Translations under genes and position numbers: made by a program
Origin: Acidiferrobacterales bacterium
Lineage (GTDB): Bacteria; Pseudomonadota; Gammaproteobacteria; Acidiferrobacterales; JAJDNE01
NCBI GenBank assembly: GCA_022340825.1
Contig: JAJDNE010000008.1
Coordinates: 1-56,429, forward strand
Length of the DNA: 56,429 nucleotides
Reading direction: 5' to 3'
Part shown: positions 1 through 56,429 of the stretch, one piece after another
How the letters are laid out: every line of letters begins with the position of its first letter
Numbering within the stretch: position 1 is the first letter of the stretch
The notes under the pieces: generated by a model
The model's input: the letters and a program-made list of their open reading frames with translations, nothing else
The model's database searches: none
Told to the model about the DNA's origin: nothing

Positions 1-1
1 C

Positions 2-127
2 ATCAATCATCGGCTGCGCGGGCTAGCTGGTATCCATGCCCTAAAAGAGCTGGACGATAGTCTGAACGAGTCGCAGGGCCTGCAAGCGTTTGTCGACCGC
101 TTAAGCCAGATTCATGACAGAATATTA
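2..127 (+). pseudogene. Internal fragment of a presequence protease (M16C), opposite strand to the main gene
   Basis: Reading the plus strand from base 2 gives an open 42-codon stretch that resembles the internal linker/C-terminal half of PreP-type M16C proteases: the segment HRLRGLAGIHALKELDDS matches the family's conserved GLAGI-x-ALK-x-LDDSL region. It has no start codon in the window and continues off the left edge. It is collinear with the codon register of the minus-strand gene that begins at 1918, but points the other way, so the two pieces of one gene meet head to head at about 119-130. The homology is from memory of the family; the opposite orientation is directly visible. Confidence 0.7.
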
Positions 128-1918
128 CAGGCACCGGGTGTAGTACGGGAGTACTTGCAACAATTCGTCATCCAGCCCAGGAAGATCGGCAACATATTGC
201 TGGTAAACCAGTCCATTGGTGCCTTGCGGATAAAACGCAGCCGGAAAACCACCGACATCAATGGATTCATGCTTTGGTATTGGCATGGTGACAGGGACAT
301 CTTCCAGGCCAACCTTGGGAAGCACCTCGGGATCGTCTTCTTCCTGCTGACGCTTTGCCAGATCCTTGGCTTGCTGAATGAGCTGTTGCTTTTCCTCGTC
401 CGATAGTTTCGCTTTCAGCTGTTGCAGCTTTTCGTGTTCTTCCTGTTCCCGCTTCTGACTCAACGTCATGTCGGGCGACATGGTCAGTCGCACGCGATGT
501 GGATTGTCGAGCAACAACTGCCTTGTCAGGCGCTTGATGAAATCAGGGTCCTTGATTTCGCCGCGCAATTGCTCCAATACCGGATCAAGATTTAGTAGTG
601 CCACCGGATCGCCGCGATGAATTGCCGGCGACAAGCCTTCCAGTATCAGCTGCAACCCATAGGGGTACCCATCTCCCTTGATCTCGCGCTGATTCAGTTC
701 CAGTTGATGCAACACCGCCTCAACCATTTCCTGCGGCACGCCGTTGTCTGCGACGTCCTGCAATACGCCCAGGATCAACTTCTCAACGGCTTCGGCATTT
801 TCGGGTTTTGAGCCCTCGACGCCACACATAAAACTCATCTCGCGATTGGAATCTTCCAGACCGCAAAGGGGTGACGGTGCGGCAGCGAGTTTTGTCGTTT
901 CCAACGCATGCCGCAAAGGCGAGGCGCCATTGTCGAGCAAGACGCTCGATAGCAAGTGGGCCCGCATCAGTTCCATAGAATCCATGCTCTTGCCCAGCAA
1001 CCAGCCAAGCACGATGTGTGTCTTGTCGCCACCCGATTCGCTTTCATCCAGTGCGTAGCTATCTTCCACGACAAGGGGGGCGCTATACCGTTGCTCGTCT
1101 TTTACCTCGATTACCTTTTCGAGACGATCGAATTGTGCCAGCGCACGCTCTTCGAATCTGGCCTGGTGCTCTACCGCCGGGATATCGCCGTAAGTCATAA
1201 ACACTGCATTCGACGGGTGATAATGGCTTTGGTAAAACTCCTTTAGTTCGTCATAGCTCAACGAAGGGATATCAGCCGGCTCACCGCCGCTGTTGTAGTG
1301 ATAGGTCGTGGTCGGAAACAGGTGTTCAGTCAGGCGCTGCCAGAGCGTGCTGATTGTGGAACTCATGGCGCCCTTCATTTCGTTGAAAACCACACCCTTG
1401 TAAACCAGGTCCGACTCGGAATTCCCGGTTTCCTCGAACTCGATCCGATGTCCTTCCTGGGCAAAATCCAGCTCGTCCAGCCGTGAGAAAAACGCTGCAT
1501 CCAGATAGACATCCAGCAGATTGTTGAAATCCTTTCGGTTCTGGCTGGCAAAGGGATACGCTGTCCAGTCGCTACTGGTGAAGGCATTCATGAATGTATT
1601 CAGCGACCGGCGAATCATCATGAAGAACGGGTCACGTACCGGATAGTGCTTGCTGCCGCACAATGCGGTGTGTTCAAGGATATGTGCAACACCCGTGGAA
1701 TCCATGGGTACGGTGCGGAAGGCGACCAGAAACACGTTCTCGGGATTGTCTGCAGCCAGGTGCAGGTACTGGGCGCCGGTCTTGCGGTGCCGGTATTCCT
1801 CCACCACCAGATTCAGCGATTCAATCTTTTCCGACCTGAGCCATTCAAAGGCTGGATGTACTTTTTCAGGGGCCTCGATTGGCCGCACCATGGCATTTCC
1901 AGTCTGTTGCGTCGTCAT
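125..1918 (-). CDS. Presequence protease PreP-like M16C metallopeptidase, N-terminal part, truncated
   Basis: This is an insulinase-family zinc peptidase of the PreP/Cym1 (M16C) type, which in bacteria degrades short unfolded peptides. The inverted zinc motif HxxEH is HILEH at residues 79-83, with Glu82 as catalytic base and Glu180 (in FNEMKGA) as the probable third ligand. A coiled, charged linker with many Lys/Glu/Gln (about residues 480-525) joins the two halves, as in PreP. Family members run to about 970 residues, but this frame stops after 597, just after PYYTRCL, where relatives continue with a TEVG-like sequence. The sequence beyond the stop is protease sequence on the other strand. 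The protein as read lacks most of its second half and would be inactive. It starts at an ATG and stands alone. Confidence 0.85.
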   Translation of the reverse strand: MTTQQTGNAMVRPIEAPEKVHPAFEWLRSEKIESLNLVVEEYRHRKTGAQYLHLAADNPENVFLVAFRTVPMDSTGVAHILEHTALCGSKHYPVRDPFFMMIRRSLNTFMNAFTSSDWTAYPFASQNRKDFNNLLDVYLDAAFFSRLDELDFAQEGHRIEFEETGNSESDLVYKGVVFNEMKGAMSSTISTLWQRLTEHLFPTTTYHYNSGGEPADIPSLSYDELKEFYQSHYHPSNAVFMTYGDIPAVEHQARFEERALAQFDRLEKVIEVKDEQRYSAPLVVEDSYALDESESGGDKTHIVLGWLLGKSMDSMELMRAHLLSSVLLDNGASPLRHALETTKLAAAPSPLCGLEDSNREMSFMCGVEGSKPENAEAVEKLILGVLQDVADNGVPQEMVEAVLHQLELNQREIKGDGYPYGLQLILEGLSPAIHRGDPVALLNLDPVLEQLRGEIKDPDFIKRLTRQLLLDNPHRVRLTMSPDMTLSQKREQEEHEKLQQLKAKLSDEEKQQLIQQAKDLAKRQQEEDDPEVLPKVGLEDVPVTMPIPKHESIDVGGFPAAFYPQGTNGLVYQQYVADLPGLDDELLQVLPYYTRCL

Positions 1919-2095
1919 AGAGTTCTGTTTTCCACAATAAAATTCGTTAGTGCCCTGATTCTACCTCGCCACCGGCCAGCTTCTACACTTCTGGACGATG
2001 CCCCCACAATCCGCAGGGTTCCGAACGCCGTACAGTAACCATTGGTCAAGCGCAGAAGAATACCGTTATCCTTAATATATATGGGATCGAACACC

Positions 2096-2422
2096 ATGAA
2101 CCAAGTCGCTGACATCATTTTGTTGCTCGAGGCCGAGTTGCGTCGCATCGGCCTTTGGGAAGAGGCAGCGCCAGAGAAACAGGCATTGGAAAGTACCCTG
2201 CCGTTTTGCCATGACTCGCTCGAGTTTCACCAGTGGTTGCAATGGGTACTCATACCAAAAACGCGGGAACTGATTGAAAAGGATATAGCTTTGCCGACAA
2301 CCAGCGATATTGCGGCACTCGCCGAGTACCGGTTTGAGCAAATGCCTCAGGAAACCGATGCGCTGTTGAAGTTAATACGGGAATTCGATCGACTGCTAAG
2401 CGAGGGAAAAACGTCGCCGTGA
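2096..2422 (+). CDS. YqcC family protein (DUF446)
   Basis: The 108-residue product matches the YqcC/DUF446 family, small helical cytoplasmic proteins of unknown role that in enterobacteria sit beside the tRNA pseudouridine synthase truC. The family pattern is visible: an N-terminal helix with EAELRRIGLW, then PFCHDSLEFHQWLQWVLIPK in the middle, and an acidic helical C terminus. I chose the ATG at 2096 because the family begins with this helix and a GGGA at 2083-2086 lies in front of it; in-frame starts at 2042 and 2081 are possible. No truC homologue is beside it here. Confidence 0.85.
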   Translation: MNQVADIILLLEAELRRIGLWEEAAPEKQALESTLPFCHDSLEFHQWLQWVLIPKTRELIEKDIALPTTSDIAALAEYRFEQMPQETDALLKLIREFDRLLSEGKTSP

Positions 2423-2431
2423 TTTTCCGGC

Positions 2432-3532
2432 TCAGGACTTTATCTGGTTTCGACCACCAGCCTTGGCGCGATACAGCGCCTTGTCGGCCAGCGACACCAG
2501 ACGAATCGCGCTCTGGGAAGCGGTAGGTACCAGCGTGGCTACACCGATGCTTAGCGTGACCACCGATTCATCCGGAACACCAATATGTTCCAGGCTGAGC
2601 GCCTCTACGGATTGCCTTAGTGTTTCGGCAAGAGCCCTGGCGGTCGCGTCGTCGGTCTCCGGCAGTATTACGGCAAACTCTTCGCCGCCATACCGCGCGA
2701 CGATATCACCGGCGCGCCGCATCTGGCGCATCAATTCCCCGGCAATTTGCCTGAGACAGACGTCTCCTGCGATGTGACCATAAGTATCGTTATAGTGCTT
2801 GAAGTGATCGACATCGATCATCAGCATTGAAATCGGGCGCTGCATTCGCATCATCCGGCGCCATTCCTGCTCAAGACTCTCATCGAAGAAACGGCGATTA
2901 AAGACGCGCGTCAGGCTATCTTCAGTGGTCAGCTGGCGTAACTCCTCTTCCAGCTGCTTTCGATCAGTAATATCGCGAGCAATCGCCACCACGTAAGAGC
3001 GGGAATCCAGCTCAATTAGCCGCGAATTGATCTCCATGGGGATGCGCCGACCGTTCCGGTGCTGGTGATATTCCTCGTAGATCACACCATTGGCGGAAAC
3101 GCCCTTTTTCGCGATCTGCCCCAGAGACATGTTCTTGTCAGTGTTTACAGTAATGGTCGAGAGATGCGAACCGACCAGGTCTTCGCGGGCATATCCCAGT
3201 CGCTGATAGGCGGCGCGATTAGCATCGAGGATGGTACCGGTGTCGGGATCGATAATAAAAATACCGTCGTTGATTTGATCGAGAAGATATCGGAACAACG
3301 CCTGTTGTTCGCCGATGCTCTGCCAGGGGTTGGGACCTTTAGGATCGGTCGACTGCCCCGGGACGGACTCGCCAACGCCAGAGGTGTCTGCCGTTACATC
3401 CGTAGCGGCGGCAGTCTGTGCACCCGGTGATCTTGAATTAAAATCGCGATTCGACAAATTCAGATTCCCTGTTACCCCGATGATCCCGATTCTTGCGTCG
3501 AGAGGCCTCTGGTCCAGTGAACCCGATATCAC
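2432..3532 (-). CDS. PAS-GGDEF diguanylate cyclase
   Basis: The protein has a low-complexity N terminus (1-70), one PAS domain (about 78-190, ending in the PAC-like DITDRKQLEEEL) and a GGDEF domain (about 200-366). The active-site loop is GGEEF at 282-286. An RxxD inhibitory site (R273-D276) lies exactly five residues before it, so the enzyme should both make cyclic di-GMP and be inhibited by it. There is no transmembrane segment, so PAS sensing is cytoplasmic; the ligand cannot be told. The start is a GTG; a TTG about 24 codons downstream, preceded by AGGGAA, is an alternative that would keep both domains. It converges on yqcC with a 9-base gap. Confidence 0.9.
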   Translation of the reverse strand: MISGSLDQRPLDARIGIIGVTGNLNLSNRDFNSRSPGAQTAAATDVTADTSGVGESVPGQSTDPKGPNPWQSIGEQQALFRYLLDQINDGIFIIDPDTGTILDANRAAYQRLGYAREDLVGSHLSTITVNTDKNMSLGQIAKKGVSANGVIYEEYHQHRNGRRIPMEINSRLIELDSRSYVVAIARDITDRKQLEEELRQLTTEDSLTRVFNRRFFDESLEQEWRRMMRMQRPISMLMIDVDHFKHYNDTYGHIAGDVCLRQIAGELMRQMRRAGDIVARYGGEEFAVILPETDDATARALAETLRQSVEALSLEHIGVPDESVVTLSIGVATLVPTASQSAIRLVSLADKALYRAKAGGRNQIKS

Positions 3533-3894
3533 CGGCTGGGCTTTTCATCTTGATCCAGGCACACAGTCTAGAGAGTTGCACTCCTGTCCGGAAGCACAAA
3601 AATCAAATCGTTGAGCACCGTCCTAAGAAATTACTTTTAGAAACCTTATTTAACCTACTGTATTAATTACTGTTTATAATTGTGAGGGATATTCAAATTT
3701 TCGAGGGATAATGCAAGTGTTTTGGCGAACCCGGCGCTTCATTATCCGGCCCTGCCAAATCGTCGCCCTTGACTTTTTTCTAATCAAGCCGGATCTAATA
3801 TTACTGGATCAGGCCGAAAGCCCCATTTTCACTTTCAAGTTACAATGAGTCCGGTCCAGCAAACGTCAAACGATGATCAGTTGGTAGAGCAAGC
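3533..3894. other. Divergent intergenic region between the cyclase and DUF1178 genes
   Basis: This 362-base gap carries no convincing gene. Its central part (about 3630-3720) is AT-rich and should hold the promoters of both flanking genes. A TTGACT at 3769-3774 followed by TCTAAT (3794-3799) or TAATAT (3796-3801) is a possible promoter for the rightward gene, but the spacers of 19 and 21 bases are longer than ideal. I see no clear hairpin or operator. Confidence 0.4.
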
Positions 3895-4323
3895 ATGATT
3901 ATTTACGATTTGATTTGTGAACACAGTCATCGCTTTGAAGGCTGGTTCAAATCCGCAACGGATTTCACTGCCCAAAAAAGTGAAGGCATGCTTAGCTGTC
4001 CTATGTGCAGCAGCCGCAATGTCACCAAACTACCTACTGCCAGCCGCATTAACCTTAAACGCGATGATTCGAAGGCCCCGGATCACGTCATGGCGGATGT
4101 CAGTTCAACTTTAATTGAAAAAATTCAGGATTATGTCGACAGTCACTACGACGATGTTGGCAAAGACTTCCCGGAAGAGGCCAGAAAGATTTACTACGGC
4201 GAGACAAGCGCACGAAACATCCGCGGCACAGCATCAGTGGATGAGGTACAAGCACTCAACGAAGAAGGTATTCCTGCCTTGCCAATACCCGGCGCGCCGA
4301 TTGACAAAACCAAGCTGAACTAG
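3895..4323 (+). CDS. DUF1178 family zinc-ribbon-like protein
   Basis: The 142-residue product belongs to DUF1178, a proteobacterial family of unknown function. It opens with the typical MIIYDLICEHSHRFEGWFKS and carries a cysteine pair CPMC at residues 35-38, with an earlier Cys at position 8, which together look like a small metal-binding knuckle. The second half is helical and acidic. The ATG at 3895 gives exactly the family's N terminus. It may be a single-gene transcript; the next gene, DUF2788, lies 127 bases downstream on the same strand. Confidence 0.9.
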   Translation: MIIYDLICEHSHRFEGWFKSATDFTAQKSEGMLSCPMCSSRNVTKLPTASRINLKRDDSKAPDHVMADVSSTLIEKIQDYVDSHYDDVGKDFPEEARKIYYGETSARNIRGTASVDEVQALNEEGIPALPIPGAPIDKTKLN

Positions 4324-55887: not shown

Positions 55888-56232
55888 CTAATTGCTGTAA
55901 AGCAACTCCAGCAACGCGCTATAGGATTCCATATCGAGGTTGCCAAAACGAACACCTACACCATTTTCGGTAGCGCGTGCCACGGTAGCCGGAAGACGAA
56001 ACTCTTTAACTTTATGTTCTTCGCCACTCTCAAGTGTGACCAGGACTTCGACTGAAGTGAATGTTGGAAGGTCGCTCCAATCAGATCGAACAAACGCTCC
56101 CTCGAGGCTGACATCGGTAATCCAGCCTGCATGTGCACCTAGCCGCGCGTGATTCAGAACGGCTGGCCGCGTAATGGTTTTACGAGGATTTTCGCGCCGC
56201 TCGGCACCCCGCGATGGACTTGTTTGTTGCAT
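55888..56232 (-). CDS. PilZ-domain protein
   Basis: A 114-residue PilZ protein with the cyclic di-GMP motifs ERRENPRKTI and DVSLEGAFVRS (DxSxxG). Its C-terminal NLDMESYSALLELL resembles that of the partial gene immediately upstream and of the PilZ protein at 51.3 kb. I use ATG 56232; a GTG two codons earlier is in frame. It reads toward the peptidase gene 67 bases away. Confidence 0.9.
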   Translation of the reverse strand: MQQTSPSRGAERRENPRKTITRPAVLNHARLGAHAGWITDVSLEGAFVRSDWSDLPTFTSVEVLVTLESGEEHKVKEFRLPATVARATENGVGVRFGNLDMESYSALLELLYSN

Positions 56233-56324
56233 TCCCACCCCTACTTGGGTGTTAACATGAAATTTCAGGTCGGATTTTTCAATGACCTAAAACCCGAATT
56301 TACACCCACCTGCATTTAATTAAT

Positions 56325-56345
56325 ATTATAGTCGAATATAGTCGA
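56325..56345 (-). promoter_or_regulatory. Promoter -10 box with tandem 10-base repeats
   Basis: On the minus strand a perfect TATAAT (56325-56330) lies at the end of two direct copies of TCGACTATA (56337-56345 and 56327-56335) spaced by exactly ten bases, one helical turn. No -35 box is found at the usual distance. The element is about 93 bases before the PilZ start at 56232, so it probably drives that gene with the help of a factor bound to the repeats. Confidence 0.45.
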
Positions 56346-56360
56346 TACGGGGTGGAGCAC

Positions 56361-56429
56361 TTAGGCCAGCATCGTCAGGTCCAGCAGCGCCCCGTAAGTA
56401 TCCATGTCCAAACTGAGGAATTTCAGACC
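56361..56429 (-). CDS. Partial PilZ-like protein, C-terminal end
   Basis: Reading the minus strand from the right edge gives 22 codons ending in a TAA at 56361: GLKFLSLDMDTYGALLDLT and so on. This resembles the last 22 residues of the PilZ proteins at 55888 (VRFGNLDMESYSALLELL) and 51257 (LRFHNFDIDTYHFL). The rest lies beyond the window. It appears to be a tandem copy upstream of the complete PilZ gene, 128 bases away. Confidence 0.65.
   Translation of the reverse strand, partial: GLKFLSLDMDTYGALLDLTMLA

Follow-up and report, generated by a model that had tools for sequence, protein, structure and literature searches.

Does this Acidiferrobacterales bacterium carry a protease gene destroyed by an inverted join, or does the join exist in the assembled contig and not in the cell? 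The question is raised by the left end of contig JAJDNE010000008.1 (GenBank assembly GCA_022340825.1), which an initial annotation had read as a protease gene broken at a head-to-head junction, either through a real inversion or through a fold-back chimera. The window analysed here, 56,429 nucleotides, is the entire contig (C85); the assembly to which it belongs comprises 127 contigs, amounts to 2.19 Mb and is 86% complete.

A protease frame and its continuation on a second contig

As first described, a minus-strand M16C protease frame ends abruptly after 597 residues. Its product carries the Pfam domains Peptidase_M16 and Peptidase_M16_C in addition to the initial half of M16C_assoc; among solved structures, the best match is to the mitochondrial presequence protease and spans residues 30-594. 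The TAA stop codon of this frame (125-127) is made by the junction, the native gene encoding 988 aa. On the opposite strand, window positions 2-127 read as 42 codons that correspond to residues 711-752 of the same protease, which bears out the proposal that the first ~126 bases encode a later, plus-strand segment of the gene. The 42-residue fragment is protease sequence, matching protease loci in 50 of 85 relatives (E ≤ 1e-3). Divergent to the protease lies a small gene (2093-2422, 109 aa, within region 1915-2422), an arrangement kept in a genome of the same family, G001.

Table 1 Coordinates and supporting evidence for features around the left end of the window.
Feature	Position	Strand	Evidence
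Fold-back arm: sense strand of residues 711-752, equal to C13:576-702 save window base 120	1..127	+	blastn
5' 597 codons of PreP-type M16C presequence-protease-like gene	125..1918	-	ORF, Pfam domains, solved relative
Junction microhomology CAGGCACCGGGT	128..139	.	overlap of two blastn matches
Overlap with C13 left end (C13:1-237), bearing native gene continuation	128..364	-	blastn, 236/237 identical

Searching the 597-aa protein against its own assembly returned a second contig, C13, whose first 237 bases encode a stretch 100% identical to residues 519-597 within an open frame of 470 aa. At the nucleotide level, C13 matches the window twice: through its left end (237 bp, E 4.6e-119) and, on the plus strand, through C13:576-714, which equals window 1-139 at 138 of 139 positions (blastn, E 8.7e-66). 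Both matches are 99% identical and far beyond chance. C13 itself runs unbroken and in native order through both sites that are joined in the window, and it encodes the remainder of M16C_assoc together with the PreP C-terminal domain. When the part of C85 that precedes the overlap is placed before C13, the two give a single uninterrupted frame of 988 codons. The native protein thus contains the M16, M16_C, M16C_assoc and PreP C-terminal domains that it shares with the M16C protease PreP (~1000 aa; 6xos, 2fge); we noted no notable difference from PreP, and the in-frame part within the window is the first 597 of the 988 residues.

Comparison with the intact genes of relatives, as the initial annotation had suggested, supports the joined frame. 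A full-length protease frame (at least 930 aa) is kept in 75 of 80 public relatives; in four of the other five, the gene is cut at the end of the sequence stretch used. At L071:1024-3022 the longest protease frame measures 666 aa and stops inside its contig, unlike in the 75 other relatives, and possibly reflects a frameshift. In 81 alignments, the 988-aa protein is matched without a break over residues 580-780. Gene order agrees as well: in G001, the protease is flanked on one side by a homologue of the small window gene (2093-2419) and on the other (L004) by a homologue of the C13 gene downstream of the protease. Taken together, the single 988-aa frame, the unbroken proteins of relatives and the gene neighbours in G001 indicate C85 and C13 to be chromosomal neighbours, and the protease gene, as judged from these sequences, to be intact in the organism and to run from C85 into C13. 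The earlier wording of a broken protease gene thus does not hold for the organism, an intact copy having been assembled across the two contigs.

Anatomy of the junction

The head-to-head join had been placed at 119-130; it is real, but sits slightly further right, at 128-139. There, the two blastn matches share 12 nt, the native copy of which, CAGGCACCGGGT, occupies C13:703-714, while its reverse complement, ACCCGGTGCCTG, lies upstream in the native gene at C13:226-237. The two copies are 465 bp (155 codons) apart on C13, and the jump leaves 113 protease residues (598-710) absent from the window, so that the original estimate of 130-150 missing residues was about right. Within the 2.97-kb gene, this 12-bp pair is the sole perfect inverted repeat of at least 11 bp within 1 kb. 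Simulation of 400 genes of the same composition nevertheless produced a comparable 12-bp repeat by chance in 63, and such repeats occur somewhere in the genes of 17 of 76 relatives, making the repeat itself unremarkable. Its exact coincidence with the junction shows the join to have been made by pairing of those 12 bases, through what would have been either annealing or recombination at the inverted repeat.

A second property of the join is its distance from the contig end. When the 162 contig ends of the assembly were compared, nine end pairs overlapped by exactly 141 bp—the signature of de Bruijn assembly at k=141—and others overlapped over 60-307 bases, in most cases imperfectly, as is typical of mixed strains. 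The reversed arm plus the microhomology measures 139 bases. The contig therefore stops about one k-mer past the join, where k-mers no longer span it and, beyond the stop, become C13 read backwards. Two bases, at window 120 and 236, set the junction haplotype apart from C13, a divergence of the same order as in other contig-end overlaps. At its right end (window 56197-56429), C85 overlaps the left end of C75 in direct orientation over 233 bp, one of them mismatched; on that side the neighbour of C85 is probably C75, separated by an ordinary strain-variant break. Elsewhere in the assembly, a repeat of ~80-90 bp occurs in two direct copies at the left end of C81 (L186:1-90 and 487-576) and in one inverted copy in C114 (L218:195-273).

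Origin of the join

Between the two origins initially proposed, the chimera is much better supported, by the remainder of the gene on C13 and by the contig ending about one k-mer past the join, and an inversion is unlikely. The join shows what characterises a fold-back chimera: two segments of one locus are joined head to head in inverted orientation, complementary microhomology (12 nt) lies at the join, and the native arrangement is intact in the same sample. We consider it very probable that the locus has a technical origin, as a fold-back chimera at the contig end of a strain-mixed metagenome assembly, and an ordinary one, of a kind already described. The sequence feature is real in the contig, but the organism itself almost certainly lacks it.

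Such a molecule could form as follows. A single-stranded molecule with CAGGCACCGGGT at its 3' end (C13:714) would anneal to ACCCGGTGCCTG (C13:226-237), which lies 465 bases upstream, either on itself or on a sister strand. Extended backwards from there, the 3' end would place a sense segment head to head with the antisense of an earlier part of the gene. At a strain-mixed spot with presumably low coverage at the junction, the assembler may have left the protease gene along the chimeric reads; its path would then have halted roughly one k-mer later on meeting C13 in the opposite direction. A fold-back contained entirely within the window was rejected: no long inverted repeat is present in positions 1-4000, and the partner lies on C13.

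Two experimental sources of such joins have been described. In multiple displacement amplification (MDA), inverted joins with an intervening deletion made up 85% of 475 chimeras, mostly primed at 2-21 complementary nucleotides (Lasken and Stockwell 2007, PMC1855051). In ordinary sonicated libraries, fold-back chimeric reads form at natural inverted repeats when single strands pair through short repeats of this kind ahead of end repair, and enzymatic fragmentation gives rise to related palindromic chimeras (PMC10908179). As in the chimeras of the PDSM model, the window joins an original strand to its inverted complement at a natural short inverted repeat; those chimeras came from human DNA, whereas ours is deduced from a contig rather than from reads (PMC10908179). 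On palindromic chimeric contigs in metagenome assemblies, we found no useful literature.

The geometry of the junction fits, on our comparison, both sources. An origin in MDA of one cell or of a sample with little biomass would be a sub-case of the fold-back chimera; the inverted join, the 465-bp intervening deletion (published deletions being <10 kb) and the 12-nt priming correspond exactly to the published class (PMC1855051). Yet an inverted interior join was present at one pair only among the 162 contig ends compared, where a larger number would be expected after heavy MDA, and the strain-level SNPs at contig ends point to a population metagenome, not to one cell. The same single occurrence led us to reject a genome-wide chimera problem. 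Given its rarity and the population-like assembly, a fold-back during library preparation or PCR is favoured; the physical step was probably library end repair or PCR fold-back, with MDA the less likely source and, on its own, a rather doubtful one.

Inversion and duplication as alternatives

Alternatively, the 465-bp segment flanked by the 12-bp repeats could really be inverted in a minority strain or a fraction of the cells, as either an invertible segment or a one-off event; this would produce the left junction letter for letter as seen, the sequence being the same under either reading. The repeats flanking the segment are perfect, and a minority strain could explain the two SNPs that separate the junction haplotype from C13. 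We regard this reading as improbable, however. The second junction that an inversion must create is in no contig of the assembly, the one junction found sits at a contig end, and the repeat is, as the simulations and the relatives' genes indicate, of a length that arises by chance. Its two copies are complementary at 12 of 12 positions here only, as compared to 1-8 of 12 in 76 relatives, and a conserved invertible element was rejected on that ground.

The recombinase complement of the genome may likewise argue against inversion. We found no serine invertase (PF00239) in the genome, which is 86% complete, and only two tyrosine recombinases (PF00589), of 304 and 312 aa, which are of XerC/XerD size and encoded on other contigs. 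Moreover, the inverted state would truncate a conserved protease with no switch to another product. Intragenic invertons do resemble the locus in that they, too, have short perfect inverted repeats on either side of a segment of a few hundred bp within a coding sequence; the present case differs in its single junction, its unconserved repeat, its position at a contig end and the lack of a dedicated invertase among the genes found. That the segment is a real invertible element, whose stop codon would turn PreP off in some of the cells of the population, appears somewhat less probable still.

The weakest alternative is a true inverted duplication, in which the genome would contain the protease segment a second time, as an incomplete copy placed head to head. 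It agrees with the single-sided fold-back structure that is all the contig displays, but is very improbable, because the segment is on no further contig and a new palindrome would be needed at the same 12-nt microhomology, of which there is no independent sign.

Were the inversion real, the stop after residue 597 would inactivate the protease in the cells concerned, and the locus would act as an on/off switch, of which no example is known for this protease gene. Under the favoured technical fold-back, the locus serves as a caution only: a fold-back at a contig edge leads automatic annotation to call a conserved protease truncated, and the join hides the adjacency of C85 and C13.
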